Below are positions 6,001 through 44,144 of a stretch of 64,000 nucleotides of DNA, piece after piece. The number at the start of each line of letters is the position of its first letter. Within the stretch, counting starts at the first letter, position 1. Origin of the DNA: Lepus europaeus (taxonomy: Eukaryota; Chordata; Mammalia; Lagomorpha; Leporidae); the NCBI RefSeq assembly GCF_033115175.1, contig NW_026909196.1:7378001-7442000 (forward strand), given 5' to 3'. A program made the position numbers and the translations under genes. The notes beneath the pieces are model-generated. The model was not told the origin of the DNA. It did no database searches and saw nothing but the letters and a program-made list of their open reading frames with translations.

Positions 6001-7620
6001 AATATCCGGATCTGTTTTGGCTAACTCAATCCCAGATATAGCTAAAGCCTCTTTGTTTTTGCTTACTGGATATTATCGACGGACTTTATTGTTTTTATAG
6101 TTTTTGTCAGGGATCATTTAATTTTGTACCGTAGAAACACTAATTGGTTCCACATGGAGACACCAGCTCTACACATTCGTATTTTCTAGGGAGAAAGCTA
6201 GAAGAACTGTGGCAAACAAACATGATATTTCTTTTTGTATAGATGACATTTTTTGCACTTGCCTAAAGAAAAGCCTTTGCTTTTCTCAAAAGCATTTTTA
6301 CTGGGATTTTCTCGGTCCATTGCACACGAATTCCAACCCACTTTTTTCCGGATATGATTGGATGATACCAGCAATATCCGGTTGTGTTTTGGCTAATAAA
6401 ATCCCAGATATTGCTACAGCTTCTGTGTTTGTGTTTATTGGATATTATGGACGTGCTTTATGGTTTTGAATGTTTTTTTATCAGGGAACTTTTAATTTTG
6501 TACCATTGATTCACTAATTGGTTCCATATGGTGACACCTGTCTACACATTCGTATTTTCTACGGAGAAAGCTAGAAGAACTGCGGCAAACAAACATGATA
6601 TTTCTGTTTGTATAGATGACATTGTATGCACCTACCCTCCGAAATGCCTTTGTTTTTCTCCAAAACCATTTTTACTGTGATTTTTTCAGTCCATTACATC
6701 CGAATTCCACCAAACTTTGTCTGGATATGACTGGATGAAACCAGAAATATCCCGTTGTGTTGTGTCTTACTATATCCCAGATATTGCTACAGCCTCAGTG
6801 TCTGAGTTTTCTGGATATTTTCGATGGACTTTATTGTTTTGAATGTTTTTATCAGGGAACATTTAATTTTGTACCGTATGTACACTAATTGGTTCCACAT
6901 GGAGACACCAGTCTACACATTCGTATTTTCTAGGGAGAAAGCTAGAGGAACTGCGGAAAACAAACATGATATTTCTTTTTGTATAAATGACATTTTATGC
7001 ACTTGCTTAACGAAAAGACTTTGCTTTTCTCAAAAAACATTTTTACTGTGATTTTCTCGGTCCATTACCTATGAATTCCACCCCACTTTGTCCGGATATG
7101 GATGGATGAAACCAGAAATATCCGGTTGTGTTTTGGCTAACTCAATCCCAGATATTGCTACAGCCTCTGTGTTTGTGTTTTCTGTATATTTTCGATGGAT
7201 TTTATTGTTTTGAATGTTTTTATCAGGGAACATTTAATTTTGTACCTTAGATACACAAATAGGTTCAATATGGGGACACCAGAACTACATATTCCTGTAT
7301 TCCAGGGAGAAATCTATAGGAACTGTGGCAAACAAACATGAAATGTCTTTTTGTATAGATGACATTTTATGCACTTGCCTAAGGAAAAGACTTTTCTTTT
7401 CTCCAATACCATTTTTACTGTGATTTTTCGGTCTATTGCATACGAATTCCACCCCACTTAATCGGATATGACTGGATGAAACCAGAAATATCCCGTTGTG
7501 TTTTGTCTATCTCCATCCCAGATATTGGTACAGCCTCTGTGTTTGTGTTTTCTGCATATTATCAATGGACTTGATGGTTTTCAATGTTTTTATCAGGGAA
7601 CAATTAATTTTGTGCTGGGA

Positions 7621-7752
7621 AACACTAATTGGTTCCATATGGGGACACCAGTCTACACATTAGTATATTCTAAGGAGAAACATTGAAACACTAATTTATT
7701 CATCATAGGGACTCTAGCTCTACACATTAGTATTTTCTAGGGAGAAAGCTGG
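7621..7752. repeat. Partial duplication inside one satellite monomer
   Basis: A piece of about 66 bp (AACACTAATT ... TCTACACATTAGTAT ... GGAGAAA) appears twice in a row, at about 7,619 and 7,687, so this monomer is longer than the others. It is a local slippage or exchange event. Confidence 0.7.
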
Positions 7753-8976
7753 AGGAACTGCGGCAAACAATCATGATATTTCTGTTTGTATAGATGACAT
7801 TTTATGCACTTGACTAATGAAAAGACTTTGCTTTTCTCCAAAACAATTTTTACTCTGATTTTCTCGGTGCATTGCCTATGATTTCCACAACAGTTTGTCC
7901 GGATATGACTGGATGATACCGGAAATATCCGGTTATGTTTTGGCTAACTCAATTCCGGATTTTGCAACAGACTCTGTGTTTGTGTATTCCTGTTATAAGA
8001 TGGACTTTATTGTTTTGAATGTTTTTTATCTGGGAACATTTAATTTTTTGCTTGGAAACACTAGGTGGTTCCACATGGAGACACCAGCTCTACACATTCG
8101 TATTTTCTAGGGAGAAAGCTAGAGGAAATGCGACAAACACACATAATTTTTTTGTTTGTATAGATGACATTTTTTGCACTTGCCTAAGGAAAAGACTTTG
8201 CTTTTCTCCAAAAGCATTTTTACTGTGATTTTTTCGGTCCATTGCATACGAATTCCACACCACTTTGTCCGGATATGTCTGGATGAAACCAGAAATATCC
8301 AGTTGTGTTTTGGCTAACTCAATCCGAAATATCGCTACAGCCTCTGGTTTTATGTTTCTGGATATTATCCAGGGAGTTTATTGTTTTGAATGTTTTTATC
8401 AGGGAACATTTAATTTTGTACTGTTGAAACACTAATTGGTCATCATGGGTACACCAGCTCTACAGATTCATATTTTCTAGGGAGAAAGCGAGAGGAACTG
8501 CGGCAAACAAACATGATATTTCTGTTTATATAGATGACATTTTATGCATTTACCTAATGAAAATACCTTGCTTTTCTCCATAACCATTTTTACTGTGATT
8601 TTCTCGGTCCATTACTTATGAATTCCATACCACTTTGTCTGGATATGGATGGATGAAACCAGAAATTTCCGGTTATGTTTTGGCTAACTCAATCCCAGAT
8701 GTTGCTACAGCCTCTGTGTTTGTTTTCTGCGGATATTTCCAATGGACTTTATTATTTTGAATGTTTTTATCATGGAACATTTAATTTTGTACCGTAGAAA
8801 ATCAAATAGGTTCAACATGGGGACACCAGCTCTACACATTCCTGTATTCCAGGGAGAAATCTAGAGGAACTGCGGCAAACAAACATGATATTTCTGTTTG
8901 TATAGATGACATTTTATGCACTTGCCTGAAAAAAAGACTTTCCTTTTCTCCAAAACCATTTTTACTTGGATTTTCT

Positions 8977-10456
8977 CAGTCCATTACATCCGAATTCCAC
9001 CAAACTTTTTCTCGATATGACTGGTTAAAACCAGAAATATCCGGTTGTGTTTTGGCTAACTGACTCCCAGATATTGCTACAGACTCTGTGTTTGTGATTT
9101 CTGGATATTATTAATGGACTTGATGGTTTTGAATATTTTTTTCTTTTTGACAGGCAGAGTGGACAGTGAGAGAGAGAGACAGAGAGAAAGGTCTTCCTTG
9201 GCCGTTGGTTCACCCTCCAATGGCCGCCGCGGTTGGCGCACTGCGGCCGGCGCACCGCGCTGATCCGATGGCAGGAGCCAGGTGCTTCTCCTGGTCTCCC
9301 ATAGGGTGCAGGACCCAAGTACTTGGGCCGTCCTCCACTGCACTCCCTGGCCACAGCAGAGAGCTGGCCTGGAAGAGGGGCATCCGGGACAGGACCGGTG
9401 CCCCGACCGGGACTAGAACCCGGTGTGCCGGCGCCGCAAGGTGGAGGATTAGCCTAGTGAGCCGCGGCGCCGGCCGGTTTTGAATATTTTTTATCAGGGA
9501 ACATTTAATTTTGTGCTGGGAAACACTAATTGGTTCCACTTGGAGTCACCAGCTCTACATATTCGTATTTTCTAAGGAGAAAGCTAGAGGAACTGCGGCA
9601 AACAAACATGATATTTCTGTGTGTATAGATGACATTTTATGCACTGGCCGAAGGAAAACTCTTTGCTTTTCACCAAAAGCATTTTTACTGTGATTTTCTC
9701 AGTCCATTACATACGAATTCCACTGAATATTTTCTGGATATGACTGGATGAAACCAGAAATATCCGGTTGTGTTTTGGCTAATTCCATCCCAGATATTGC
9801 TACAGGCTCTGTGTTTGTGATTTCTGGATATTTCAATGGACTTTATGGTTTTGAACGTTTTTTATCAGGGAACATTTAATTTTGTGCTGGGAAACACTAA
9901 TTGGTTCCACATGGAGACACCAGTCTACACATTCGTATTTTCTAGGGAGAAAGCAAGAGGAACTACGGCAAACAAACATGATATTTCTGTTTGTACAGAT
10001 GACATTTTATGCACTTGCCCAATGAAAAGGCTTTGCTTTTCTCCAAAACCATTTTCACTGTGATTTTCTTGGTCCATTACTTATGAATTCCATACCACTT
10101 TGTCCGGATATGGATGGATGAAACCAGAAATATCTGGTTGTGTTTTGGCTAACTAACTCAATCCCAGATGTTGCTACAGCCTCTGTGTTTGTGTTTTCTG
10201 GATATTTTCCATGGACTTTATTGTTTTGAAAGTTTTTTTCGTAGAACATTTAGTTTTGTACCGTAGAAACACAAATAGGTTCAACATGGGGACACCAGCT
10301 CTACACATTCCTGTATTCCAGGGAGAAATCTAGAGGAACTGCAGCAAACAAACATGATATTTCTGTTTGTATAGATGACATTTTATGCACTTGCCTAAAG
10401 AAAAGACTTTGCTTTTCTCCAAAACAATTTTTACTGCGATTTTCTCGGTCCATTAC
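8977..10456. repeat. Satellite block, copy 1 of a recent internal duplication
   Basis: Apart from the inserted SINE, this stretch matches 12,298-13,426 nearly base for base, far more closely than neighbouring monomers match each other. Matching points (for example 9,511/12,481 and 9,836/12,806) are exactly 2,970 bp apart, which is eight monomers. This suggests unequal exchange or a higher-order unit of eight monomers. A related monomer type, marked by CTTTTTCTCGATATG, also recurs at about 10,475. Confidence 0.85.
9142..9475 (-). mobile_element. Young C-SINE (lagomorph C repeat) in the satellite
   Basis: Complete C-SINE read on the minus strand: head GGCCGGCGCCGCGGCTCAC at 9,475, a tRNA-like B box (GGTTCTAGTCC), the GGCCATTGGAGGGTGAACCAA block, a CTCT-rich tract and the ACTCTGCCTGTCAAAAAG tail. 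It is flanked by the direct repeat GGTTTTGAATATTTTTT at 9,125-9,141 and 9,476-9,492. The same satellite site without insertion is present near 12,446. Confidence 0.97.
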
Positions 10457-12297
10457 ATCCGAATTCCACCAAACTTTTTCTCGATATGACTGGATGAAAC
10501 CAGAAATATCCGGTTGTGTTTTGGCTAACTGACTCCCAGATATTGCTACAGACTCTGTGTTTGTGATTTCTGGATATTATTAATGGACTTTATTGTTTTG
10601 AACATTTTTATCAGGGAACATTTATTTTTGTGCTGGGAAACACTAACTGGTTCCACATGCAGACACCAGCTCTACACATTGGTATTTTCTAGGGAGAAAG
10701 CGAGAGGAACTGCAGCAAACAAACATGATATTTCTGTTTGTATACATGACATTTTATGCACCTGCCTAAAGAAAAGACTTAGCTTTTCTCCAAAAACATT
10801 TTTACTGTGATTTTCTCGTTCAATTACATACAAATTCCACACCACTTTGTCCGGATATGACTGAATGAAACCAGAAATATCCGGTTTTGCTTTGGCTTAC
10901 TATATCCTAGAGATTGCTACAGACTCACTATCTGAGTTTTCTGGATATTATCAATGGACTTTATTGTTTTGAATATTTTTATCAGGGGACATTTAATTTT
11001 ATACCCTAGAAACACTAATTGGTTCCACATAGAGACACCAGCTCTACACATTGGTATTTTCTAGGGAGAAAGTGAGAGGAACTGCGGCAAACAAACTCGA
11101 TATTTCTGTTTGTATACATGCATTTTATGCACCTGCCTAAAGAAAATACTTTGCTTTTCTCCAATACCATTTTTACTGGGATTTTATCAGTCCATTACTT
11201 ACGAATTCCACACCACTTTGTCCGGATATGACTGGATGAAACCGGAAATATCCGGTTGTGTTGTGGCTTACTATATCAAAGATATTGCTACAGCCTCAGT
11301 GTCTGAGTTTTCTGGATATTTTTAATGGACTTTATTGTTTTGAACATTTTTATCAGGGAACATTTAATTTTTGCTGGGAAACACTAATTGGTTCCACATG
11401 CAGACACCAGCTCTACACATTCGTATTTTCTAGGGAGAAAGCGAGAGGAACTGTGGCAAACAAACTCGATATTTCTGTTTGTATACATGCATGTTATGCA
11501 CCTGCCTAAAGAAAATACTTTGCTTTTCTCCAATACCATTTTTACTGCGATTTTCTCTGTCCATTACATACGAATTCCACACCACTTTGTCTGGATATGA
11601 CTGGATAAAACCAGAAATATCCGGTTGTGTTTTTGCTTACTATATCCCGGGTATTGCTACAGACTCAGTGTCGGTGTTTTCTGGATATTATCGATGGATT
11701 TTACTGTTTTGAATGTTTTTATCGGGGAATATTTAATTTTGTGCTGGGAAACACTAATTGGTTCCACGTGGAGACACCAGCTCTCCACAATCCAATTTAA
11801 TAGGGAGAAAGCTAGAGGAACTGCGGCAAACAAACATGATATTTCTGTGTGTATAAATGACATTTTATGCACCTACCTACTGAAACCACTTTGCTTTTCT
11901 CCAAAACGATTTTTACTGTGATTTTCTTGGTCCATTACAAACGATTTCCACACCACTTTGTCCGGATATGCCTGGATGAAACCAGAAATATCCCTTTGTG
12001 TTTTGCCTAACTCGATCCCAGATATTGTAACAGCCTCTGTGTTTGTGTTTTCTCGATTTTATCGATGTGCTTTATTGTTTGGAATATTTTCATCAGGGAA
12101 TATTTAATTTTGTACCGTAGAAACACTAATTGGTTCCATAGGGAGATGCCAGTCTACACATTCGTATTTTCCAGGGAGAAAGCTAGAGGAACTGCGGCAA
12201 ACAAACATGATATTTCCGTTTGTATACATGACATTTTTTGCACTTACCTACCGAAACGACTTAGCTTTTCTCCAAAAACATTTTTACTGTGATTTTC

Positions 12298-13426
12298 TCA
12301 GTGCATTACATCCGAATTCCACCAAACTTTTTCTCGATATGACTGGATGAAACCAGAAATATCCGGTTGTGTTTTGGCTAACTGACTCCCAGATATTGCT
12401 ACAGCCTCTGTGTTTGTGATTTTGGATATTATTAATGGACTTGATGGTTTTGAATATTTTTTATCAGGGAACATTTAATTTTGTGCTGGGAAACACTAAT
12501 TGGTTCCACTTGGAGTCACCAGCTCTACATATTCGTATTTTCTAAGGAGAAAGCTAGAGGTACTGCGGCAAACAAACATGATATTTCTGTGTGTATAGAT
12601 GACATTTTATGCACTGGCCGAAGGAAAAATCTTTGCTTTTCACCAAAAGCATTTTTACTGTGATTTTCTCAGTCCATTACATACGAATTCCACCGAATAT
12701 TTTCTGGATATGACTGGATGAAACCAGAAATATCCGGTTGTGTTTTGGCTAATTCCATCCCAGATATTGCTACAGGCTCTGTGTTTGTGATTTCTGGATA
12801 TTTCAATGGACTTTATGGTTTTGAACGTTTTTTATCAGGGAACATTTAATTTTGTGCTGGGAAACACTAATTGGTTCCACATGGAGACACCAGTCTACAC
12901 ATTCGTATTTTCTAGGGAGAAAGCAAGAGGAACTACGGCAAACAAACATGATATTTCTGTTTGTACAGATGACATTTTATGCACTTGCCCAATGAAAAGG
13001 CTTTGCTTTTCTCCAAAACCATTTTCACTGTGATTTTCTCGGTCCATTACTTATGAATTCCATACCACTTTGTCCGGATATGGATGGATGAAACCAGAAA
13101 TATCCGGTTGTGTTTTGGCTAACTCAATCCCAGATGTTGCTACAGCCTCTGTGTTTGTGTTTTCTGGATATTTTCCATGGACTTTATTGTTTTGAATGTT
13201 TTTTTCATAGAACATTTAGTTTTGTACCGTAGAAACACAAATAGGTTCAACATGGGGACACCAGCTCTACACATTCCTGTATTCCAGGGAGAAATCTAGA
13301 GGAACTGCAGCAAACAAACATGATATTTCTGTTTGTATAGATGACATTCTATGCACTTGCCTAAAGAAAAGATTTTGCTTTTCTCCAAAACAATTTTTAC
13401 TGCGATTTTCTCGGTCCATTACATAC
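12298..13426. repeat. Satellite block, copy 2 of the duplication (SINE-free)
   Basis: Partner of 8,977-10,456 at a satellite distance of 2,970 bp. It lacks the SINE: GGTTTTGAATATTTTTT continues uninterrupted at about 12,446, giving the natural empty site. Only scattered single-base differences are seen over about 1.1 kb; the copies part near 13,426, where this one reads ACGAATTCC instead of CCGAATTCC. Confidence 0.85.
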
Positions 13427-13701
13427 GAATTCCACACCACTTTGTCCGGATATGACTGGATGAAACCAGAAATATCCGGTTGTGTTTTGGCTAACTCAAT
13501 CCCAGATATTGCTACAGCCTCTGTGTATGTGTTTTCCGGATATTATCAATGGACTTTATGGTTTTGAATGTTTTTTATCAGGGAACAGTTAATTTTGTAC
13601 CGTAGATACAATAATTGGTTCCATACGGAGACACCAGCTCTACACATTCATATTTTCTAGCGAGAAAGCTAGAGGAACTGCCGCAAACAAACACGATATT
13701 G

Positions 13702-14133
13702 TGTCGGAGGCCACCCGACAAACCACATGGAGACACGCAGCACTCAGTCAATTCATCACCACGTTTATTGCCTCATCGCGTTCCAAGCCATAGTTGGGGG
13801 CCCGGCGATGAGGGACTGGAGGCAGTCTCCCTAAGGAAACACTTCATTCTCCATCAGCAAGCACCAAGAAACACAAGGACATATACCCCAGGCCCCATAC
13901 AGATAACATTCATTGTGTGCAATCATGCATAGCACAGGAACAGAGCAAGTTTACAAAGTAGCAATGATCAGGGTACAAGCTCTGCAGATAGTGCAAAGAA
14001 CATCATAAACCTTCATCAGAAGTCACATCCTGCCTGCAGGAATATGGGATGAAAAGTCTTGGAAACAGGATTAGATAAGGGACAGCCTCAGCCTGCTGCA
14101 TCTCATGTCGGGCCAGGGCCACTGGCCCCGAAA
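13702..14133 (-). repeat. ERV-A 3' LTR
   Basis: 432-bp partner of the LTR at 18,484-18,915, with about 12 substitutions between them. Its first minus-strand bases read TTTCGGGG instead of TGTCGGGG, so the terminal TG is mutated. It directly follows the polypurine tract at 14,134-14,151. Confidence 0.93.
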
Positions 14134-14151
14134 TCTCCCCCTTCCTGTTTG
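14134..14151 (-). promoter_or_regulatory. ERV-A polypurine tract at the 3' LTR
   Basis: The minus strand reads CAAACAGGAAGGGGGAGA immediately before the 3' LTR. The GGGGGAGA core is shared with tracts A and B, supporting those as real former LTR junctions. Confidence 0.85.
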
Positions 14152-14258
14152 TACAAGAGTGGCCTGGTGTTTATGGTAACCGGTGTCTACACTGTCCAGA
14201 GGGCCGCAGGGGAGGATCCATCCCCCACAAGTCCCTCGCGTTAAATGCTGAATGGCGT

Positions 14259-14396
14259 GGACTCATGCCTGTCTTAGGTGCCCCGCAGCGCTTACTCTGC
14301 TTACCCGTCATCAAGGATATAGGAAGCATGTCCTGCCCTCTGTCTTAGGTTGCTAGAGAAGCCTGCGAGTGCTTACCCGTCGTTGACTACCGGTCC
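14259..14396 (-). promoter_or_regulatory. CTE-like RNA export hairpin C
   Basis: Third motif set (loops at 14,339-14,381 and 14,268-14,309). The inner stem is CUCGCAG-GCUU-CUCU paired with AGAG-u-AAGC-g-CUGCGGG, again with two one-base bulges on the second strand. The outer stem (GGAC with GUCC) is weaker than in B. About 120 bp separate it from the functional polypurine tract. Confidence 0.85.
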
Positions 14397-14637
14397 ACCC
14401 TAAGAACAGTGTAGGAGCAAGCGGTCAATGAGGCAGTTAGGAAGAGAGAGACTGAGGCTTTCACGGCATATCACATACTGCAGCCCCCTGTTTTAGAGTG
14501 TCCTAGAGGGTATGTACTGTCCTTTTGATAGCCTCTCTGTTTGCACACATTGGAACGGTGGGAACGTTTGGTTGTATTACTTCACATCAGTCTACAGGCA
14601 GGCAGAAGACAGAGGTTGTGGGGGCTGGCTCCCCACA

Positions 14638-14652
14638 GCTCCCCCTTTTTTT
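14638..14652 (-). promoter_or_regulatory. Polypurine tract B with U3-like tip
   Basis: The minus strand reads AAAAAAAGGGGGAGC and then TGTGGGGAGCCAGCCC from 14,637, like a U3 start. It lies only a few bases beyond hairpin B. The region from 14,637 down to about 14,400 may be U3-derived; I see no coding frame there. Confidence 0.7.
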
Positions 14653-14658
14653 ACTTTA

Positions 14659-14808
14659 GGACCAGCGCCTGTCTTAGGCGCCCCTGAGCGGAGTGGCAGC
14701 TTACCCGTCTTTGCCAGAGGGTCGACTTGCATGAGCAGTCTCAGCCCTCCGCTGTCTTAGGTTGCATGCCATCCCTCAAGGCACTTACCCGTCTCTGGCT
14801 ACTGGTCC
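14659..14808 (-). promoter_or_regulatory. CTE-like RNA export hairpin B
   Basis: Same architecture as hairpin A. The outer stem is GGACCAGU-a-GCC with GGC-GCUGGUCC, the two loops are GACGGGUAA/CCUAAGACAG type, and the inner stem is CCUUGAG-GGA-UGGCA paired with UGCCA-c-UCC-g-CUCAGGG. Its stem sequence differs from A and C while pairing is kept, with the one-base bulges on the same strand. It follows the second envelope piece and precedes polypurine tract B. Confidence 0.87.
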
Positions 14809-15202
14809 AAGAAACCAAGAAACACCTGCTGTATTGCAGAGGAGGGGGGTTTTGTAGCGATGACTTCGAATGGGGACCAAATATCTATGTCCAGTTGTGT
14901 TAAGAACCCAATCTCTTGCCGTAGTTCACGCAGCAAACGAGTGAAATTACTATCCCAGGTATGGTTTAAGGTGGCACCTAAAGAGCGAGACAAATTAGCA
15001 AGATGAGTATAGTTATGCCAGGTAAACGGAGTAGCGCAAAGCACGACAGATTGAACCAAGCAGGGGGTTCCCCACATCCCCGTCTAAGATTCAGTTCTTC
15101 CTGGAGAACGTTGACCCGTTGGTTTAGTAATAAGATTCCTGAATGGATATGCTGATCCACTGCCACTCGGAGCGTTCTTGTTTGATCATTCTTCTGGAGC
15201 AT
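14799..15202 (-). pseudogene. ERV-A second envelope transmembrane piece, frameshifted
   Basis: Two overlapping minus-strand frames (15,202-14,978 and 15,077-14,799) join by a frameshift near 15,050. Together they look like the C-terminal half of a betaretroviral-type transmembrane ectodomain: a heptad-like helix (LNQRVNVLQEEL), a cysteine pair, several sequons (NLS, NYT, NHT, NFT) and a second helix (LLRELRQEIGFL). No membrane anchor is seen. It is unlike the 15,530-16,303 frame, so the provirus carries pieces of two env genes. Confidence 0.6.
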
Positions 15203-15290
15203 GGGAATAGGTGACCTTTTTTCCTTTTAGGAATTTCACAAGCCAAGACTGACCTTGACTTGTCTATGACTTGTTTATGGGCTGCCTACA

Positions 15291-15304
15291 TCTCCCCCTT
15301 TTTT
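15291..15304 (-). promoter_or_regulatory. Polypurine tract A with U3-like tip
   Basis: The minus strand reads AAAAAAGGGGGAGA directly followed (from 15,290) by TGTAGGCAGCCC, as at the start of an LTR U3. It lies about 10 bases past hairpin A. About 90 bp of U3-like sequence follows before the next envelope piece, but there is no complete LTR here. Confidence 0.7.
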
Positions 15305-15314
15305 ATTTAACTGA

Positions 15315-15450
15315 GAATGGCCTCTGTCTTAGGTTGCCCTCAGTCATCTCTGTCCTTACCCGTCATTGGTAACTCTGGCAGCTTGGCCTAGAGCCCTGTC
15401 TTAGGTTGGTACAGGATGCTGAGCGTCTTACCCGTCTCTGAGTACCATTC
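15315..15450 (-). promoter_or_regulatory. CTE-like RNA export hairpin A
   Basis: The minus strand holds two GACGGGTAAG/CCTAAGACAG motif pairs (at 15,394-15,436 and 15,324-15,364). They fold as one long hairpin: outer stem GAAUGG with CCAUUC, two symmetrical internal loops made of GACGGGUAA facing CCUAAGACAG, and an inner stem CUCAG-CAUC-CUGU paired with ACAG-a-GAUG-a-CUGAG. In Mason-Pfizer-type viruses such a constitutive transport element binds NXF1/TAP through these loops and lets unspliced RNA leave the nucleus. It lies between env and a polypurine tract, the expected place. Confidence 0.85.
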
Positions 15451-15529
15451 CAGCCCAACATTAGGTGAGAGATGAAACATACAGCCAAATATTAATTATT
15501 TGTGATTACAAATAATGATGAATGTCAGT

Positions 15530-16303
15530 TCATACAGACTGTAGCCAAGTCAGCATAAAATGCAGAACACACAGAAAACATCCCATACCAAGTAGGAAAA
15601 GCAGTAGTGGTCCAGTCAACATTAATAACCAATGAATCCATTGAAACCCTCCAAATGTTAGGGGGTTAGTAATAAACATGTTTTGTATTTTACTCTTAAG
15701 TTTATCAATAACAGACTCTATATATGGCACATTGTTAGTAATGTTAAAACAACATTTTCCTGTTACAGATTTACAACTTATATGATTTTTTAACATCAAG
15801 TAATTGTTAGCTGCATGGTTTAAAAGTACTCCTGAGTGAACTTGATCCAATGTTTCGGCTATATTGGACAGTCCAGTAGCAGTAAGATTAATTGTTTTGG
15901 TCACTGAATATGCAAGCCTTCGCAGTCCACGGTTATTTCCAAAGGCCAGTCCAGGAACACTTACTACTGGTACAGCCATGGCCAGGGCAATGTCCTCTCC
16001 TATTAGGATGACATTGCCATTACAGTCTTTAGGTGAAGCATGTTGCCGATGCGCTCTATCCGCCACTGTAAATACAGATGTCAGCATCGGGGCCACACAG
16101 TCCAGGGAGCAATTGCAGAAGTTATCAGAGGCTAACGATGTGAAGGCATATTTGCTACATAAAAAAACCCACCCCTTAGGAGTCCATGTCCCATACCAGT
16201 ATTGGATTAGGTGTATATCATTGATTGGCGAAAGGATCCCTTTATTGTACCGATTGTAAAACCTTAATAACTTGTGCAGGCTGTGCACTCCGTAACTTGT
16301 CAT
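15530..16303 (-). pseudogene. ERV-A envelope fragment with complete transmembrane anchor
   Basis: 257-codon open frame with the hallmarks of a retroviral transmembrane subunit: a hydrophobic, fusion-peptide-like segment at residues 104-121, a helical stretch rich in N and L (about 130-172), a C-x6-CC disulphide motif at C177, C184 and C185, NxS/T sequons (for example NLT at 139, NIT at 187) and a strong membrane span at about 223-248, followed by a very short tail. The N-terminal 100 residues (cysteine-rich, W36-W45) belong to the surface subunit, so the frame is the 3' part of a larger env whose 5' part is broken. The first CTE hairpin follows about 80 bp downstream. No function expected. 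Confidence 0.75.
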
Positions 16304-16720
16304 TTTAATTTTTACTCAATCCTGAGCAGAGAGCCCATTCCTTTGCCAAAGAGGCGAACTGAGGGTCTTTCCAGCCAGAAACTTTACAGGTTACACATTC
16401 GACTTTAGTTTTCCTTTTAAAGAAAGGAATTGTTTTGTATACTTGTAGATTCTGTTGACTATACCAATTTGTGACAGCAAATTGTTTTTTAGCTGTCTGC
16501 TGTGCACAGACTTAGTTACTTTTAGTTTAATCTGCAAGAAATACGCTGCAAGCCTTATAGTGCACACTAAAGTTATTTAGAGGAAAGATGGTAAAGGAGT
16601 ATAGATTAACAGAATGTTGCAATAAACATGGCTCCATTGCTTTAATAATACTATAGCAAGACAGTCCACTGATTCCTGTTGGGAGGGCCTGAGGCTGGCC
16701 CCGCTTCCAGTTTTCTAAAC
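16304..16720 (-). pseudogene. ERV-A envelope surface-region remnant, interrupted
   Basis: Minus-strand coding traces rich in cysteine and aromatic residues (CVTCKVSGW, PFFKRKTK and similar) lie directly upstream of the 257-codon envelope frame. Stops interrupt them (near 16,530 and 16,317). Position and composition suggest the surface subunit part of the same env gene. Confidence 0.45.
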
Positions 16721-16779
16721 TCTGTTTTTTAATGAATTACCTTTTTTATCAGTTTTGGAGTGACATTTATTGGCCCAAT

Positions 16780-17100
16780 GCCTTCCCCTTTAGCACTGGG
16801 GGAATATACCAGGAGGAGCCTTATTTTGATTTTTGACTTTTGGACAATTTTTGTACATGTCCCTGCTGTCCACATTTATAGTACCCTCATTTATTAGGTA
16901 GTCCTCCTTGATGATTTTTGTAATGACATACCATGTAGAGCGGCAGGTTCTGAATGTCCTGTTTTTAAGTGAATCCATTTTGCTAATCCCTCATCAAAGG
17001 AACTGTCACAGAACACCTCAGTCATAGTAGCCAATTGATTCATGTTTACATTGTACTCACGTTTAGCAGAATTAATAGTGCCGTGGGCATCACTAAGCAA
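16780..17100 (-). pseudogene. ERV-A possible gag nucleocapsid remnant
   Basis: On the minus strand near 16,885-16,840 one frame reads YYKCGQQGHVQK, resembling a retroviral CCHC zinc knuckle with its first cysteine replaced by tyrosine and the last one lost by a frameshift. The upstream frame (17,100-16,894) is short and unrecognised. If correct, this is the only gag trace; pol is not visible between here and env. Confidence 0.4.
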
Positions 17101-17179
17101 TCTTCACAAAGCACCGGAAAAGAATCCATACTGAGAATCAGACATTATTAGTAATCATTACAGGCATGTTTAACATGTA

Positions 17180-17515
17180 GCTTGACTGTGTGTTCCCCTG
17201 GGATGAAGCAGCAGCAGCAGAGGCTTGCCCCGGCTCCCTCTCAAAGCCCCAAGGACAAGGGTGGCTCATTGCCAAGATTTTAGGCAAGCAGTGCATCCCG
17301 TCCCGGATCTTGGCCAGAGAGCCAAGACATGAAGCATGCCCACCTGTTTATCAGAAACATTCCTTTATCCTCCTCCCCAGGAACTGGCCAGGCTCCCAAG
17401 GAGCAGGAGAAGGTCATTTGGCAACAAAGTTACTTGTCCACCAGAGCTGAACCTAGATACAAGCCTCTTTATTTTAAAAATTTGTCCTTACATTTGGCCC
17501 TAGGGCTGCATTGAG
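17180..17515. other. GC-rich segment inside ERV-A, unassigned
   Basis: About 335 bp, clearly richer in G+C than the AT-rich interior around it, including a CAGCAGCAG run near 17,209. Read on the minus strand it carries AATAAAGAGGC near its start (about 17,470). It could be part of another LTR or a captured piece. No convincing coding frame. Confidence 0.4.
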
Positions 17516-17582
17516 AGGTAGACATAATTAACACATTATAAGAATACAATACAAATTTTTCATACAAGTATATATCCAGCAA

Positions 17583-18170
17583 TCAAACACAATAATACTC
17601 AATGTGTTTTAAGGGTAAATTGAAACATAACTGAGGGAGAATAGCTTCTTGGGCACCCATGTCAAGGACATAAAAAACAGTACCATTCCAATACAACAAC
17701 TCAAGCTGCTGCAGACAGCCTGAGAACTGGCTAGACAATCCCATGGCATGGAGATCTGAGGCATTGATACTTGTTAAACAGACATGTTGAGGCGCACACA
17801 ATCCAATTAACAAATGCGCTAACATTTTGCATTACTCTGAAATTAGTGATTTGGGTTTCATTAAATATTTGTAACATCTCTTTTTGATAAGACAACAAAT
17901 TTTTTAGCGGATGGAACATGGTGGGTAACCATTTAGCCATAATGATAGTAGCCTCTTACTATCTGTAATTGTTACATTTTTGTAGGTTTGTGCAATCTTA
18001 ACTACTTGTGGCATATTTTGATTTACATTTTTTAAAGCCAACCACGCATAATCTGCCCAAGCATTCCTATCAATAATAAGGGTAGAGTTAGTACATAATA
18101 CAAAAATAGAATGGGTAGTCCAGACACTTTGACACTGCTTGCTTTGTTTCTTTAAATGCGCATTTTCCAT
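17583..18170 (-). pseudogene. ERV-A internal frames with glycoprotein-like composition, unidentified
   Basis: Three overlapping minus-strand frames (18,170-17,904; 17,940-17,731; 17,825-17,583) follow one another with frame changes, as in a single decayed coding region. They contain several N-glycosylation sequons (for example FNET, INAS, WNGT, KNVT) and scattered cysteines, which looks more like an envelope surface region than gag. The position just inside the primer site is wrong for env and suggests rearrangement. I do not recognise the family; the reading as one gene is inference. Confidence 0.4.
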
Positions 18171-18461
18171 AGTTATGGCTTAGAGGGGTTCCTGAGAAAT
18201 TTTTTGTCTTTTAAGTCCTACACGTGCCAATTGCTCCCCCCTTTCTCCTGCAACCGGCGTCCCAGGAGCTTTTTAACAAGGCCTTTATATCCTTGTCACA
18301 TTTAGATGTGACTGTATATTCCCCATGGGCAATAGGAGAGGCTCCCCGGGCAAGCCCTAGTCTGCCACGCCCTACTCGTGCTTATGTGCCTCCCTTTTAA
18401 TCCCTACGGCCTGCTACCGCCACAGCCTTCCCTCTTACAGAGGCTTACCTGTGGATGAGAT

Positions 18462-18481
18462 GAATCCGAGTCACGGCACCA
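18462..18481 (-). promoter_or_regulatory. ERV-A primer-binding site (tRNA-His)
   Basis: The minus strand reads TGGTGCCGTGACTCGGAT..., two bases inside the 5' LTR. This is the complement of the 3' end of mammalian tRNA-His including CCA, with no mismatch that I can see over 20 bases. It fixes the orientation of the provirus. Confidence 0.9.
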
Positions 18482-18483
18482 GC

Positions 18484-18915
18484 TGTCGGAGGCCACCCGA
18501 CAAACCACATGGAGACACGCAGCACTCAGTCAATTCATCACCATGTTTATTGCCTCATCGCGTTCCAAGCCAAAGTAGGGGGCCCGGCGATGAGGGACTG
18601 GAGGCAGTCTCCCTAAGGAAACCCTTCAGTCTCCAGTAGCAAGCACCAAGAAACACAAGGATATATACCCCAGGCCCCATACAGATAACATTCATTGTGT
18701 GCAATCATGCATAGCACAGGAACAGAGCAAGTTTACAAAGTAGCAATGATCAGGGTACAAGCTCTGCAGATAGTGCAAAGAACATCATAAACCTTCATCA
18801 GAAGTCACATCCTGCCTGCAGGAATATGGGACGAAAAGTCTTGGAAACAGGATTAGATAAGGGACAGCCTCAGCATGCTGCATCTCATGTTGGGCCAGGG
18901 CCACTGGCCCCGACA
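18484..18915 (-). repeat. ERV-A 5' LTR
   Basis: 432-bp LTR starting TGTCGGGG and ending CCGACA when read on the minus strand. TATA-like TATATA lies near 18,661-18,668 and a poly(A) signal AATAAA (minus strand) at 18,546-18,551. It is followed, after two bases (18,482-18,483), by the primer-binding site. Confidence 0.93.
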
Positions 18916-19264: not shown

Positions 19265-19877
19265 TGAAAGAATTAGGCTGGTTAGGTTTAAGATGGAGTT
19301 GCTTGAGCTAACTGCATATTGTTCTGCTTCTGTGCAAATTGGCTGGGCTTGCAATAATTTTTGCAAGAAATAAAAATGCTTTCATAAGATAGCTGAACTT
19401 TAGCTGAACTTGCAGTATGTAATCGTTTTTGTAACCGTTTTAGGAACTATAAAGGCAGAAGTTAACAAAAAATTGTACCCAACCTATGTCCTGTTTTAAT
19501 ACCACAAGTTATTACACACTACATTGACCCCTGCCCTTGCTTGCTCAAGCTAGAAATGAAAACCACAAGGCACGTACAGCATGTAACTTCTTCCCTTTTA
19601 CCCTGGAAACCCCCTTCTTACCCTGTAATCCTTTAGGTTACCAAATGAAATTGTAACACTGTGGAAATATGCTAATGTTGTGGTTTTAAGCCTTAAATAC
19701 TCTGTGAAATTGATGATCGGGGCCACTCTCTCTGCACTGCACTAGAGGGTGCTGTTGTGTTGTTGAGACGGCCCATTTGCAAATGCAATAAACTTCCTCT
19801 TGCTCTTGCAGCGATTGGAGTGGAGTCTGTGTTTCTGGGGGTCCGGATTGTGGGACACCTGCTTAAGGGGTCTTACA
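19265..19877 (+). repeat. ERV-B 5' LTR
   Basis: 613 bp, TGAAAGAATT ... GTCTTACA. TTAAATA near 19,692 is a candidate TATA element and AATAAA at 19,787-19,792 a poly(A) signal. Only two differences to the 3' LTR were seen (CACGTAC versus CATGTAC, and TTGCTCTTG versus TTGCGCTTG). Confidence 0.95.
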
Positions 19878-19882
19878 TTTCT

Positions 19883-19900
19883 TGGGGGCTCGTCCGGGAT
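19883..19900 (+). promoter_or_regulatory. ERV-B primer-binding site (tRNA-Pro)
   Basis: TGGGGGCTCGTCCGGGAT, the standard 18-base tRNA-Pro complement of gammaretroviruses, five bases inside the 5' LTR. Good splice-donor-like sites follow at 19,941 (GAG|GTAAGT) and 20,047 (TAG|GTAAGG). Confidence 0.95.
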
Positions 19901-20146
19901 TCAGACCCCCCCAGATTCACCCTCCATCTCCCAATCGGAGGTAAGTCTCTTCTGTTTCGTGTATTTTTGTGTGTTTCACTGTCCATTTCCCCGGGGCGCC
20001 TGGCGTACCGGTGTTTATGTTTACAGGTGATAAGAGCCAGTAGTAGGTAAGGACAGACGTGTCCGGACCCCTGGCTCAAGCCCTGGAGGACGCTCCAGCG
20101 GTGTTCTGGGAGAGGGCTGGTTAGGCAGCCGCTCCCATCGGAAGTT

Positions 20147-21349
20147 TTGGTTTCAGTTTTGTTTCGTTCCATTGTCGCGTGCAGTATGATTGTGTGTTTT
20201 GTAATTACGTTCTGTGTTATGATTATGATTTACTTTTTCTTTCCCAATATGAGTCAGGGATTAACCACGCCTTTAAGCCTTATTTTAGATCATTGGAAAG
20301 AGGTCCAAGAACGGGCCCAAATCTTGTCCGTGAAGGTGCGAAACCAGGTGCAAAATCCCCCAAATTGGGTAAAACCTTTTCTTTTCTCCAACAGGGTGGT
20401 GGCGGAGCTCGATCCCGCTGCTCCCGTCACCGCCCTAAAAATGAAGCCCAGCCCTGAGTTGCCAACGGCCACCCCGGCGGCGGAGTCGGGCCCCAAACCC
20501 ACTCCGCCCCTATCTGTGACACCTCTAGACCCACTTTTGCAGGCCCTCCTGACTACGGAAGAAAGACAACGAGTTCTCACGGAAGCTCGGAAGAGCGTTC
20601 CTGGGGACAATGGTCAACCCACCCAACTTGCAAACGAAATTGATGCAGCTTTCCCGTTAACCAGACCAGATTGGGATTTTAATACGGCAGCCGGTAGGGA
20701 ACGACTCCGTCTCTATCGCCAGATTCTCCTGACAGGTCTCAAAAGGGCAGGGAGACGCCCTACTGATTTGGCTAGGGTAATCCAGGGTAAGGAAGAGACC
20801 CCAGCGGGGTTTCTGGAAAGGTTAGCTAAAATCCTGGTCACCGCAGTGAGCAAATTAAACAGACAAGATAGGTCATGTTACGGTAGAGGTCAGACAGGGA
20901 AATACCCGGGAGATAATAATAGACCACGGAAAAGACCACAGATAGAACGAGACCAGTGTGTGTACTGCAAGGAGAGAGGACACTGGGCCAGAGACTGTCC
21001 AAATAAAAATGTCACCAGAGAAAAGAAGGAGGACGGTGTGGGGGCCAGTGAGGCCCTACTGAAACAGCTGAAACAGGAGATGTCCCTGCTGCCCCTAACG
21101 GAGCCTACCATCACCGCCAACTTTAGCCTCTTTGCTCCCTTTGGCAGTGGCTGCCCGATCAGCGGGCAGAGCCAGCTGAGGGGGGCCTTTGGAAGTGGGG
21201 CGCTGCCCACTGGCCCCGACTACTACTCCCAGCTGCTTACCAAGAATAACCTGAGTAACCCTGAACGTATTCGGTTTGAAACAACGACCTCCCTCAATCC
21301 CGCCACACTGCTACCGGAACCAGGAGACCAAAACGCAGGTCAGTCATAA
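20147..21349 (+). pseudogene. ERV-B gag remnant fused to a pol fragment
   Basis: 400-codon open frame. The family's usual Gag start corresponds to the ATG at 20,249 (MSQG...TTPLSL); its second residue is serine, so the usual myristoylated glycine is missing. The frame is also open upstream to an ATG at 20,147, adding 34 residues with a strong hydrophobic stretch, reminiscent of the leader of gammaretroviral glyco-Gag. A matrix part is followed by a proline-rich linker, then only the C-terminal part of capsid ([18 protein letters not shown] region) and a nucleocapsid zinc knuckle C-x2-C-x4-H-x4-C ([14 protein letters not shown], about residue 271). After it the frame runs into a sequence matching the end of the reverse transcriptase connection region ([19 protein letters not shown]), so protease and most of RT are deleted. 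Confidence 0.85.
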
Positions 21350-21605
21350 CTGCCAACAGGTGCTGGCCGAAGTCCATGGGGCCCGAGAGGACCTGACAGA
21401 TCGGCCCCTACCAGATGCTGAGTACACCTGGTATAATGAAGACAGCAGCTTCCTCCATCAAGAAGCCTTCCCGACCAAGGAAGGAACCGCACTAATATTT
21501 CCCCGATTTGGACTACCAAAAGGTACTGGGGTCAGACAACGGACCCGCTATCGTCTCCCGGGTGAGTCAGTTGGTGGCCAGGGTGCTGGGGATTTAGTCA
21601 GGTAA
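21276..21605 (+). pseudogene. ERV-B RNase H and integrase fragments
   Basis: In another frame than gag. It starts with the N-terminal RNase H region (VLAEVHGAREDLTDRPLPDA); at the expected first catalytic aspartate the sequence reads YNEDSS, so the site is altered. From about 21,480 the sequence switches to integrase, visible partly in a third frame as [17 protein letters not shown] with the central catalytic aspartate. The DNA between, most of RNase H and the integrase N-terminus, is absent. Confidence 0.8.
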
Positions 21606-21611
21606 AACGTA

Positions 21612-21710
21612 TGAGCAGAACAATTAAGGAGACCTTAGCTAAATTAATAGTGGAGACTGGCACTAGGGACTGGGTCAAGTTGCTGCCGATGGCTTTGTTG
21701 AAGGCTCGTA
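21612..21710 (+). repeat. Integrase segment, first copy
   Basis: About 95 bp encoding the integrase core end ([18 protein letters not shown]...). It is repeated in diverged form at 22,367-22,463. The two copies differ at several sites, so they are not a simple recent duplication; they look like pieces of two related proviruses. Confidence 0.8.
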
Positions 21711-22366
21711 ATATTACTGTTGCTAGACTTTAATTGTCCGAGGACTAACTCTGGAAAGGAGCTAAAGTTAACTATCTGTTTTAATTGACTGAGTGTTTTG
21801 CAGTAGTCCTGATTGATCTGGCTTTGTTAGTCTTCTGGTGAGGTAAGAAGAGCCAACCAGGCTCTATGGAAAACATCAAGTATAAAAGTGTGTACTTGGT
21901 AAAGAATGTTGTTAGTAAGAAGGGCTAAAAAGAAAAGAGCTTTTTAAATAAGGAAAGGACATGGTTTGTAAGAATGACTTTATCCTGATGGCTAGTTTAC
22001 TCTAGACTGGAATGGAAATGGTAAAATATTTAAAGTAAGTTGAAGAGGGTGAGTGAAAGTTACAAAAAATTATAAAAATAAAAAAATGATGGGAGGCCGG
22101 CACAGTGTTCCTAAGGCTACTGTCACATACCATAAGACAGATAGCAAGAGAAAATACCCAGATCTCCCTCGACGCCCATATGCCAGCTGTGAAGAAGTTA
22201 CGGAAGACGGAACTCCATCCATAATCCCAAAATTTTGGGTATTCCGCTTGAGGGAAAATGTTAGGCAGGAAGCCAGTTGTGAGCTTATGTGTGTGTGACA
22301 GGCCTAAAGATAAGGCATTTATATGCATCCGCATCTCAAACACCCTGCTCCCCTCCTTTGTTTCAA
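21711..22366. other. Unrelated sequence inside ERV-B pol
   Basis: About 656 bp, AT-rich, without retroviral coding sequence and with no long open frame, placed between two copies of the same integrase segment. It does not match the other repeats in this window. It could be captured host DNA or the interior of another element. Confidence 0.6.
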
Positions 22367-22805
22367 AACAACAATTAGGGAGACCTTAACTAAGTTGATA
22401 ATGGAGACTGGCACTAGAGACTGGGTTGAATTGCTGCCAATGGCTTTGTTTAGGGCCCGCAAAACACCTTCTGTATGTGGACTAACATCTTATGAAATAT
22501 TGTATGGAGGCCCTCCACCCGCGGCAGATTTGTTGGGACCCAGTATTGACTCTTTTGCAACATCCCCTACTTTGCAGACTCGTTTCCGTGCCTTGCAGCT
22601 GATTCACAAGCACATAGGGAAGCAGCTGGCTGCCGCATATCAGTCCAAAGGCCCCGTGCTCCCACACTCGTTCCAGGCTGGGGACACCGTCTACGCCGCG
22701 CTGGAAAGGACCTTACACAGTACTACTGACCACACCGACGGCGGTAAAGGTGGACGGAATCGCCGCCTGGATTCACGTGTCGCACGTCAAGAAAGCAGCA
22801 ACTGA
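22323..22805 (+). pseudogene. ERV-B integrase C-terminal part
   Basis: 160-codon frame: integrase core end (TIRETLTKLIMETGTRDW, from about 22,367), then the conserved LTSYEILYGGPPPAADLL region and a basic C-terminal tail. The usual C-terminal domain appears shortened and the end runs out of frame just before env. The first 15 codons belong to the inserted sequence. No N-terminal zinc-binding domain, so not functional. Confidence 0.8.
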
Positions 22806-22850
22806 ACAGAGTCAAGGGACAGGCAGCCCTGCCGACAAGCCGACACCGGA

Positions 22851-23885
22851 ATGGAGACTACAACGCACTCAAAACCCCCTCAAGATAAGACTATTTTGCT
22901 CTTAGTATTCTTTTTCAGCATGGTTGTAGTAAACTCAAGTCCTCATATCCCTTATCATATTACTTGGCAGCTTATTAATTTAAGAACCGGAGCAATTGTC
23001 AATAGCACCTCTGGTTTTAATGTTCTTAGTGATTATTTTCCTGAATTGTATTTTGACCTTTGTCAACTTTTTGATGCTGATGATGTATGTGTTGGGAAGG
23101 GAGGAACCTATGTCTGTCCCGGGGGAAAGAATGGAAAATCCCTTCCTGGTTGCGGGGGCCCCGAAGTAGGATACTGTGAAAAATGGGGATGTGAAACCAC
23201 TGGAAGTGCACACTGGAAACCCTCCTCTTCATGGGACCTGATTACTATCGGGGCGGCTCCAGGTATAATATTTAGTAACTGTGGGGGTAGGGACTGTAGT
23301 ACTTGTATAAATGGGACGTTGGGTAGGTGTCACCTCCAGATCCTTCGCTTCACAGATAAGGGAAAACAGGACAAATGGGTTGGGCCTAAGTCATGGGGCA
23401 TATACTTGTATAGACCGGCCAGAGACCCCTTTGCCCTATTCGCCTTGAGCCGGACAGTTACTGTCGCAGCCGTATCGGTTGGACCAAATAAAATATTAAC
23501 AGATCAGAGGAGCCCAACCTCCCCACACTTTGCAAAGGGGAAATCTCTTGGGCAGGTACTTGTCAGAAATCGGCCCAGTCAGACGCCTGCCAGCAGTCAG
23601 TCCAGTCTGGCTTCCCCGACAACCGTTTTCCCGAATAAGCACGTAGTAGCAACGCCTCCTCCGCCCGGCCCCGAAAATTCCTCCTTACCCGGAACGGGGG
23701 ATAGGCTCCTCAACCTAATACATGGGGCCTTCCAAGCATTGAATGGCTCTGACCCCGATAGGATCCGGGATTGCTGGCTGTGCCTAGCCTCACCTCCCCC
23801 TTATTATGAGGGAGTAGCTGTCGTTGGAAATTGGACCAACCATACCAATGTCCCTCCCCAGTGCTCCAATCTGCCATCCCACTGA
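22851..23885 (+). pseudogene. ERV-B envelope, surface part, ends at a premature stop
   Basis: 344 codons. An N-terminal signal peptide (hydrophobic core [14 protein letters not shown], residues 14-27), a cysteine-rich receptor-binding-like region, a proline-rich hinge and the CWLC isomerase motif near residues 308-311, which in gammaretroviruses forms the disulphide to the transmembrane subunit. The frame ends at TGA (23,883-23,885), but env-like sequence continues in the same frame, so this is a nonsense mutation inside the gene. The surface part is shorter than usual for the family. Confidence 0.88.
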
Positions 23886-24768
23886 CTAACTCTTACAGAA
23901 GTATCAGGACAGGGACTTTGCGTAGGCTCCATTCCCCCTCAATATCAGGGCCTCTGTAATAAAACTATGACTCTCAAACCAGGCACCTATTATTTAACAG
24001 GACCAAATGGGACATTTTGGGCATGCAATACAGGCCTAACCCCCTGCTTGGCAGGACAAGCTCATAATCGAACTCATGAATGGTGCGTCATGGTTGAAGT
24101 ATGGCCTCGGGTCACACTACATGACCCTGAGGAAGTCTACCGACAATATGAGGGAAACCTCCGGCTCCCTAGGGAACCCTTATCCATAACGCTAGCCCTC
24201 ATATTGGGAGGACTCACAGTCGGGGGCATCGGAGCAGGCATAGGTACCGGAGCCACTGCTCTGTCAAAGACAAATCAGTTTCACCTGTTACAGCAAGCTA
24301 TGCATTCAGATTTACAAGCTTTAGAAGAATCCGTCAGTGCCTTGGAAAAGTCCTTAACTTCACTTTCCGAGGTAGTATTACAAAATAGAAGGGGGCTGGA
24401 CCTGGTATTTTTAAAGGAAGGGGGACTATGTGCAGCCCTAAAGGAAGAGTGTTGTTTCTATGCGGATCACACTGGAGTGGTCAGAGATAGCATGGCAAAA
24501 TTAAGGGAGACTAAAACAACGACAGAGCCATTTTGAGGCAGGACAGTCATGGTTTCAGAGCTGGTTTAACTCATCCCCTTGGTTAACAACCCTAATTTCC
24601 ACCATCACAGGACCTTTAATAATATTACTTTTAATTTTAACCTTTGGGCCCTGCATAATAAATAGGCTTCTTCAGTTTATTAAAAGTAGATTGTCTATCA
24701 CCCACGCCTTGATCCTGACCCAGCAGTACCAAAGTTTAAAAACGGAGGACATAGAAGAAAAATTTTAG
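23886..24768 (+). pseudogene. ERV-B envelope, transmembrane part, frameshifted
   Basis: Continues the surface frame after the stop. Open to 24,536, it contains the end of the surface subunit, a glycine-rich fusion-peptide-like segment (about 24,180-24,270), the helical region, an immunosuppressive-domain-type stretch (LQNRRGLDL) and the C-x6-CC motif. The usual basic furin site is not recognisable: it reads RLPREP. Near 24,505 a frameshift moves the remainder, a membrane span and a tail with a YxxL-type signal, into another frame that ends at TAG 24,766-24,768. The gene is therefore broken at two points and probably not cleavable. Confidence 0.85.
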
Positions 24769-24810
24769 GATGCAGCTATTCCTTAAATTTTAAGATTAAA
24801 ATTTGCCAAG

Positions 24811-24825
24811 AAAAAGAGGAGGGAG
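24811..24825 (+). promoter_or_regulatory. ERV-B polypurine tract
   Basis: AAAAAGAGGAGGGAG immediately before TGAAAG of the 3' LTR. Confidence 0.9.
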
Positions 24826-25438
24826 TGAAAGAATTAGGCTGGTTAGGTTTAAGATGGAGTTGCTTGAGCTAACTGCATATTGTTCTGCTTCTGTGCAAAT
24901 TGGCTGGGCTTGCAATAATTTTTGCAAGAAATAAAAATGCTTTCATAAGATAGCTGAACTTTAGCTGAACTTGCAGTATGTAATCGTTTTTGTAACCGTT
25001 TTAGGAACTATAAAGGCAGAAGTTAACAAAAAATTGTACCCAACCTATGTCCTGTTTTAATACCACAAGTTATTACACACTACATTGACCCCTGCCCTTG
25101 CTTGCTCAAGCTAGAAATGAAAACCACAAGGCATGTACAGCATGTAACTTCTTCCCTTTTACCCTGGAAACCCCCTTCTTACCCTGTAATCCTTTAGGTT
25201 ACCAAATGAAATTGTAACACTGTGGAAATATGCTAATGTTGTGGTTTTAAGCCTTAAATACTCTGTGAAATTGATGATCGGGGCCACTCTCTCTGCACTG
25301 CACTAGAGGGTGCTGTTGTGTTGTTGAGACGGCCCATTTGCAAATGCAATAAACTTCCTCTTGCGCTTGCAGCGATTGGAGTGGAGTCTGTGTTTCTGGG
25401 GGTCCGGATTGTGGGACACCTGCTTAAGGGGTCTTACA
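24826..25438 (+). repeat. ERV-B 3' LTR
   Basis: 613 bp, nearly identical to the 5' LTR and followed by CTTT, the target duplication. Confidence 0.95.

Positions 25439-42595: not shown

Positions 42596-44144
<1,549 letters not shown>

Follow-up and report, generated by a model that had tools for sequence, protein, structure and literature searches.

The window, the whole 64,000-nt stretch of DNA analysed here, contains a provirus that quite likely belongs to a multicopy lagomorph ERV family, which is probably non-autonomous and in which a recombined 3' end carries three CTEs and, with them, six candidate NXF1 sites. The host is identified as a lagomorph from its C-SINE sequences. CTEs, recombinant ERVs and probable non-autonomy are each of known kinds, whereas no precedent was found for their combination. 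The parts of the open-access literature that were consulted describe neither a natural provirus with more than one CTE nor a lagomorph virus that carries one.

Anatomy of the provirus

The provirus lies on the minus strand of the window and consists of the following parts, with the basis of each assignment given in brackets.

13702..18915, minus strand: provirus within a 371-bp satellite array (LTR pair; 6-bp target duplication ATATTG on both sides)
18484..18915, minus strand: 5' LTR, short form, 432 bp, TGTCGGGG...CCTCCGACA (LTR comparison)
18464..18481, minus strand: primer binding site TGGTGCCGTGACTCGGAT (sequence)
16316..18463, minus strand: leader and frame-broken internal remnants, 2.1 kb (sequence, Pfam scans)
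15530..16315, minus strand: TM1, open stop-to-stop frame, env transmembrane tail of ASLV/syncytin-2 type (PDB sequence matches)
15315..15450, minus strand: CTE-A, two-loop hairpin (folding, covariation)
15292..15304, minus strand: PPT-A, followed by TGTAGGCAGCCC, the U3 start of lineage A, at 15290 (sequence)
15168..15290, minus strand: first 123 nt of lineage-A U3, with the breakpoint 15168/15167 to the next lineage (L038 and L042 diverge here)
14799..15167, minus strand: TM2, putative tail of a second, different env, broken frames (sequence)
14659..14808, minus strand: CTE-B, two-loop hairpin (folding, covariation)
14639..14652, minus strand: PPT-B, followed by TGTGGGGAGCC, the long-LTR start, at 14637 (sequence, long solo LTRs)
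13702..14637, minus strand: 936 bp equivalent to a long LTR, which is also found solo with target duplications (comparison with solo loci)
14259..14396, minus strand: CTE-C, two-loop hairpin inside U3 of the long LTR (folding, covariation, solo LTR comparison)
14134..14146, minus strand: PPT-C, followed by the short 3' LTR (sequence)
13702..14133, minus strand: 3' LTR, short form (LTR comparison)

The satellite array hosting the provirus spans positions 1-13700 in approximately 37 copies and resumes at 18916. All three hairpins had been predicted to lie in a single provirus, and one LTR pair and one exact 6-bp duplication indeed enclose all of them. The two LTRs of the window differ at 12 of 432 positions, and the 3' LTR starts with TT, while its sister copies start with TG. 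Betaretrovirus-like (ERV2) elements are recognised by a 6-bp target duplication and TG...CA LTRs. Both features are found here, with the exceptions of the short LTR L069, the pair L058/L074 and the TT start of the window 3' LTR. The primer binding site is presumably that for tRNA-His.

The internal remnants comprise gag-like pieces, including a zinc-knuckle-like stretch at about 16880-16760, all of them recognised by eye only. None of the ten frames scanned, out of 17 internal minus-strand frames of at least 40 aa, reached a Pfam family at cut-off. Five provirus fragments, namely TM1 and TM2 pieces, likewise gave no Pfam family, and these scans together revealed no recognisable pol in the 2.1-kb internal space. 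TM1 matches the avian sarcoma/leukosis TM chain (E 1.6e-5) and the syncytin-2 TM chain (E 8.9e-5) in the PDB. TM2, the last frame of which overlaps the first 10 nt of CTE-B, reads as an env tail of a type other than TM1, and its pieces found weak matches only in the PDB (E 0.2 or worse). A TM2 relative on a short contig (P0002) shows 88% identity over 98% of 94 aa, and another short contig (P0001) carries a further protein relative with 87% identity over 57%. A third protein-relative search found no relatives.

In RNA sense, the tail runs from TM1 via CTE-A, PPT-A and TGTAGGC, where U3 starts, to TM2, CTE-B and PPT-B. It continues with TGTGGGG, the LTR start, followed by 241 nt, CTE-C, 112 nt, PPT-C and the short LTR. 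CTE-A and CTE-B thus sit between an env tail and a PPT, which is the MPMV-type place. CTE-C departs from this usual place, as it lies 112 nt before PPT-C inside the long-LTR U3.

Two further features of the window lie outside this provirus. A second provirus occupies 19265-25125 on the plus strand, with open stretches for gag (Gag_p30, zinc knuckle) and env (TLV_coat). Its 300-bp pieces beginning at 19265 and at 24826 match each other at 100%, so it is probably a very recent gammaretrovirus-like insertion near the satellite. At 42847-44086, 84-bp tandem repeats look by eye like C2H2 zinc-finger linkers of the HTGEKPY type.

Loops and stems of the three hairpins

The hairpins are marked by two 10-base motifs, GACGGGTAAG and CCTAAGACAG. 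An exact search of the 64-kb window located six copies of GACGGGTAAG and six of CCTAAGACAG, all on the minus strand within 14269-15436, and no exact copy of either elsewhere in the window. Every one of the 12 loop motifs is intact in the window provirus. Motif words with up to two mismatches are no commoner than in shuffles (22 vs. 26.3 expected, and 66 vs. 61.5 expected), and the case for the hairpins is therefore made by the exact, paired motif set.

MFE folding of the three stretches yields one hairpin each, with both loop strands opposed, and in both loops GGGU on one strand faces ACCU or a similar sequence on the other. The free energies are -49.9 kcal/mol for CTE-A, -70.0 kcal/mol for CTE-B and -49.8 kcal/mol for CTE-C, with z-scores of -4.3, -4.0 and -2.5, respectively. 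None of 200 dinucleotide shuffles folded equally well for CTE-A or CTE-B, and four did for CTE-C. When the motifs were fixed and only the spacers shuffled, the corresponding counts were zero, zero and eight of 1000. The weakest fold of the three is that of CTE-C. Both loops formed by chance in 36, 16 and 30 of 1000 motif-fixed shuffles of CTE-A, CTE-B and CTE-C (1.6-3.6%). The two internal loops are in inverted (2-fold) orientation in all three hairpins, and AAGACA is present in each internal loop via all six CCTAAGACAG motifs. The original prediction of six minus-strand motif pairs in three sets, each foldable into a two-loop hairpin, is borne out by the exact search and by the folding of 14,259-14,396, 14,659-14,808 and 15,315-15,450, in which the paired motif strands do face each other.

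According to excerpts of PMC4330393, PMC4330390 and PMC4377836, the internal loops of a CTE are arranged in 2-fold symmetry with AAGACA in each, and one Tap-p15 is bound per half. A role of the AAGACA motif in the CTE loop is described in excerpts of PMC4330393 and PMC4174252, and the 2-fold symmetric CTE suits the 2-fold NXF1:NXT1 platform (excerpts of PMC4330393 and PMC4330390). By analogy, each AAGACA loop of the window provirus would bind one NXF1:NXT1, giving six sites in cis per RNA, so that unspliced family RNA would need no viral protein for its export.

The motif positions are identical (40/40) in every pair among the three hairpins, and identity outside the motifs amounts to 41% for A-B, 55% for A-C and 49% for B-C. 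In the alignment of the three, 19 of 42 pairs are altered on both sides yet still pair. The shuffle expectation is 7.0, and 19 was reached in none of 500 shuffles. Pairing is found in 95.2% of 125 cells, compared with 33-43% once the strands are slid by 1-3 columns. For a wider test, two extra hairpin classes of the same genome were added, namely D (taken from L048) and E (taken from L043). When a single structure is applied to the remaining four classes, that of A is retained in 143 of 178 cells, that of B in 135 of 164 and that of C in 141 of 174, whereas at most 80, 79 and 81 cells, respectively, are kept after sliding by 1-2 columns. Compensated cells in these comparisons number 49, 48 and 42 for A, B and C, and at most 26, 32 and 28 in the slid controls.

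The identical motifs and the diverged, compensated stems suggest that, over a long divergence in the parent viruses, constraint acted on the sequence of the loops but on the stems only through their pairing. The hairpins had been proposed to be related by covariation rather than by recent copying, with stem changes compensated in relatives from the genome. The first part agrees with the compensated pairs and the 41-55% non-motif identity, and the second is upheld by classes D and E. A covariance-model search, which had also been suggested, recovers only these three hairpins in the window; their scores of 137-146 bits follow by construction, as the model was built from them, and the next-best match reaches 14.4 bits (E 0.13). 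Rfam gave no family match for the hairpins at the gathering threshold, and only a chance pRNA match over 13500-16000 with E up to 10.

Other accounts of the constant motifs were considered. The sequence GGGTAAG agrees with the 5' splice donor consensus, and the motifs might have been kept as splice signals rather than as parts of an export element. This is hardly credible, because the opposite partner motif CCTAAGACAG is equally constant, the stems covary, and the inverted motif pairs would be left without a reason. An old tandem duplication of a single CTE cassette within one lineage would explain why all motif positions are common to each pair (40/40). It is very unlikely in view of the non-motif identity of only 41-55% and of the env tails and U3 starts, which differ beside A and B. 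Moreover, A-only and C-only relatives exist, and there are no near-identical tandem CTE intermediates among the fetched loci. Three diverged hairpins brought together by recombination are the preferred reading.

Joints, LTR forms and PPT use

Judged by its sequence, the tail is a mosaic of different retroviral 3' ends with three PPTs. Loci L038 and L042 share CTE-A, PPT-A and U3-A with the window and then diverge at 15168/15167, which is therefore assigned as the A/B joint. L038 also shares TM1 (89%). By this comparison, CTE-A belongs to a lineage with an env tail, a CTE, a PPT and 123 nt of U3. A lineage-B parent with its own env was not found among the loci; L053 retains nothing of CTE-B beyond positions 48-150 and lacks a TM2 match.

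The C-only loci L039, L040 and L052 open with TGTGGGG immediately behind the position of PPT-B, run to the end of the LTR, and are flanked by exact 6-bp duplications (TAAGTG, CAGGTC and GGGACT, respectively). They are solo long LTRs of 946, 936 and 982 bases by coordinates, with CTE-C in U3. The idea that CTE-C represents a third recombined 3' end was rejected, since the B/C border is the long-LTR start in these three loci. Two other C loci, L051 and L054, have another start or end and are without the solo long-LTR frame. Exact 6-bp duplications also flank the short solo LTRs L070-L073, and no clean one was found for the short LTR L069.

As both long and short solo LTRs carry target duplications, PPT-B and PPT-C both appear to have been used to define the LTR. 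A plus-strand start at PPT-B would make CTE-C part of the LTR, and a start at PPT-C would leave it outside. One hypermutated copy bears on PPT-B:

G000:C11:115204657-115206218: L028, G-to-A hypermutated copy with its border at PPT-B

Upstream of the PPT-B/U3 border of L028, 144 G-to-A positions stand against 249 window G (with about 29 nt uncovered by the match), and downstream of it 2 stand against 130. The G-to-A change nearest to the border lies two bases upstream of PPT-B. This pattern is absent from the 20 other triple loci. APOBEC3 cytidine deaminases edit the minus strand that is left single-stranded upstream of the PPT in use, which would produce such a border. The border in L028 is as expected if the plus strand began at PPT-B, and PPT-B would accordingly have been used and PPT-A left unused. 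The base following the changes is A in 50, G in 46, C in 36 and T in 12 cases, with no narrow dinucleotide preference. Alternatively, the border could be a recombination joint at the same place. A search for the 5' LTR of L028 found none.

Template switching by reverse transcriptase, or an equivalent recombination, would have joined the 3' end of lineage A onto that of lineage B. Lineage A would have contributed an env tail, a CTE, a PPT and the start of U3, and lineage B an env tail, a CTE, a PPT and the long LTR with CTE-C in its U3. It is solely the joints that point to this mechanism. Within the long LTR lie a separate CTE and, after it, a separate PPT and start of an LTR; by this anatomy, the long LTR would probably be an earlier product of the same recombination process.

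A succession of three PPTs and three LTR starts might also be left behind by independent proviruses that were nested or juxtaposed as DNA at one locus and later reduced by deletions to a series of 3' ends. This is unlikely, because the whole is bounded by a single TSD and a single LTR pair, and the same joints are present at dispersed loci, which indicates that the A-B-C series moved as a unit. Nesting at the DNA level could have been a first step before retrotransposition, and it is disfavoured for the window locus, for which recombination of viral 3' ends is the preferred explanation.

Family copies, site number and known systems

The recombined tail recurs in the genome of the window (2.93 Gb). 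The genome-wide motif search proposed earlier gave 2149 exact matches to the half-site pattern vs. 0 for the reversed pattern. For the stretch from CTE-B to CTE-C, 224 first-look candidates were obtained, and all 40 that were scored (window included) span at least 255 of 262 bases. The stretch from CTE-A to CTE-B gave 498 candidates, and all 40 scored (window included) span the full 506 bases. With the remaining candidates unscored, the copy number is bounded only, at 40 or more per joint. The A-B-C order was found at 21 of 21 further loci, each with A, U3-A, TM2, B, C and the LTR start; these loci were selected either through the B/C joint (18 of the 39 others with it) or through their motif series (three) and are uninformative on the frequency of A, B or C alone. 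All twelve motifs are exact in only six of the 21 triple loci, and in L028 hairpins A and B have lost their fold. Accordingly, there is no sign of selection on the hairpins of single inserted copies. In the older C relatives L047, L051 and L052, MFE folding keeps the inner loop, and the outer one is lost or not clean.

The short LTR start occurs at 474 exact places in the genome. Among the first 100 of these, eight same-strand pairs are 4.74-4.80 kb apart (4.78 kb in the window), two further pairs are 4.11 and 5.05 kb apart, and another 1.99 kb. As eight pairs share the spacing of the window, the gene-poor, shortened form itself appears to have multiplied, which implies that proteins were supplied in trans. 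Mouse ETn/MusD elements are also non-autonomous, gene-poor proviruses that multiplied, presumably with proteins in trans, and to our knowledge no triple CTE is known in them. All ten fetched paired loci have a short 5' LTR followed by the same leader. At their 3' ends, L029, L036 and L037 are full triples, and five were matched at one joint only. Among four pairs with both flanks read, the target duplication is exact in two, 5/6 in one and absent in one; the pair L058/L074 has no clean 6-bp duplication.

Four of these ten pairs were dated, and their LTRs differ at 1, 3, 2 and 6 of 432 positions, compared with 12 in the window. By this measure, these copies are young, with a bias towards young copies, as they were found via an LTR start matching exactly over 18 bases. 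Their youth suggests recent activity. CTE-C is of full length in four young copies (L074-L077).

Related layouts were observed at other loci. Five of 20 fetched loci (L045, L046, L050, L056 and L057) match no window segment. In L044 (940-1148, reverse complement) and L049 (618-826), an ERV tail contains a single-loop hairpin, then a two-loop CTE and then a PPT, giving three predicted sites per RNA by fold. In L050 (611-750) and L057 (662-801), both left motifs come before both right motifs. This order would place the two loops in the same orientation, not in 2-fold symmetry. Both loops form when a shorter part of L050 is folded, and only the inner loop in longer stretches of L050 and L057. L045 (1014-1050) and L056 (830-866) contain a single half-site with the short inner hairpin ATCYCCTGGGGGA, a layout that recurs at many of the listed half-site places; in MFE folds of these two, the expected loop was not formed. 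Lastly, L048 and L055 represent the further two-loop CTE class D, which folds well and lies beside sequence matching the TM1 end at 83-87%.

Outside this genome, the exact half-site pattern matched no stretch in IMG/VR. Looser half-site patterns matched five and two stretches there, none of which reached 11 bits with the covariance model. TM1 protein patterns had no match in IMG/VR, and TM2 protein patterns matched eight stretches, none of them confirmed. In the bacterial and archaeal contig collection, the half-site pattern matched two stretches, both below 10 bits with the model, and the bacterial-contig match L008 looks by eye like ordinary bacterial coding DNA.

The six sites may not act additively. 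Each parent may have had a working CTE, and if the mosaic was amplified in trans by another retrovirus, one hairpin or none would suffice while the others hitch-hike. This account comes not far short of an even chance. It is in line with the motif decay (six of 21 loci fully exact) and the lack of a recognisable pol, and with published assays: one to three copies of a gamma-CTE had little effect in one assay, four copies being needed (excerpts of PMC4174252), and in some mRNAs multimers of the CTE did little or nothing (excerpts of PMC1363727). It sits less well with the full set at 21 of 21 copies (chosen by joint or motifs), with the full-length CTE-C in the young copies L074-L077, and with the synergy of two adjacent CTEs in one gag reporter (excerpts of PMC1363727). 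Going by these excerpts, published multimer effects are context-dependent (PMC1363727, PMC4174252). The original suggestion was that the three hairpins could give strong nuclear export of unspliced transcripts.

The three-CTE recombinant, which is the preferred reading, resembles several known systems in part. The MPMV/SRV CTE is likewise a long hairpin with 2-fold symmetric loops and AAGACA in each, located 3' of env with a PPT directly downstream (excerpts of PMC4330393, PMC4377836 and PMC11379458). The likeness is one of overall plan; the published loops are 16 nt long. In contrast to MPMV/SRV, the lagomorph family has three diverged elements per RNA, one of which is able to lie inside U3. 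SERV-K/MER11 of macaques is an HML-2 x HML-8 recombinant, in which a foreign env tail and an LTR-derived, CTE-active sequence were likewise placed upstream of the PPT (excerpts of PMC11379458). There, a single element was added, and the same excerpts indicate no obvious MPMV-type NXF1 loops, whereas three elements with MPMV-type loops are stacked here. The lagomorph element looks like this process repeated more than once. Bat endogenous betaretroviruses also have betaretroviral 3' ends with predicted Tap-binding motifs, but a triple arrangement is not mentioned in the excerpts of PMC3621094.

A tentative and rather doubtful generalisation is that lagomorph retroviruses stack 3' ends. Each recombination would place a new cassette, made up of an env tail, a CTE and a PPT, ahead of the existing LTR, and the PPT chosen in the next round would decide whether the older CTE enters U3. 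Such a ratchet would alter how long the LTR is and how many NXF1 sites each RNA carries (apparently one to six in this genome), with higher numbers favoured by better export.

The genome thus offers natural RNAs with apparently one, two, three and six predicted NXF1 sites, and with inverted, single and possibly same-orientation loops. These RNAs make the number of sites needed and the role of 2-fold symmetry directly testable. The long LTR shows a route by which an export-type element enters an LTR and hence solo LTRs. The 2149 exact half-sites of the genome could affect retained-intron transcripts of host genes.
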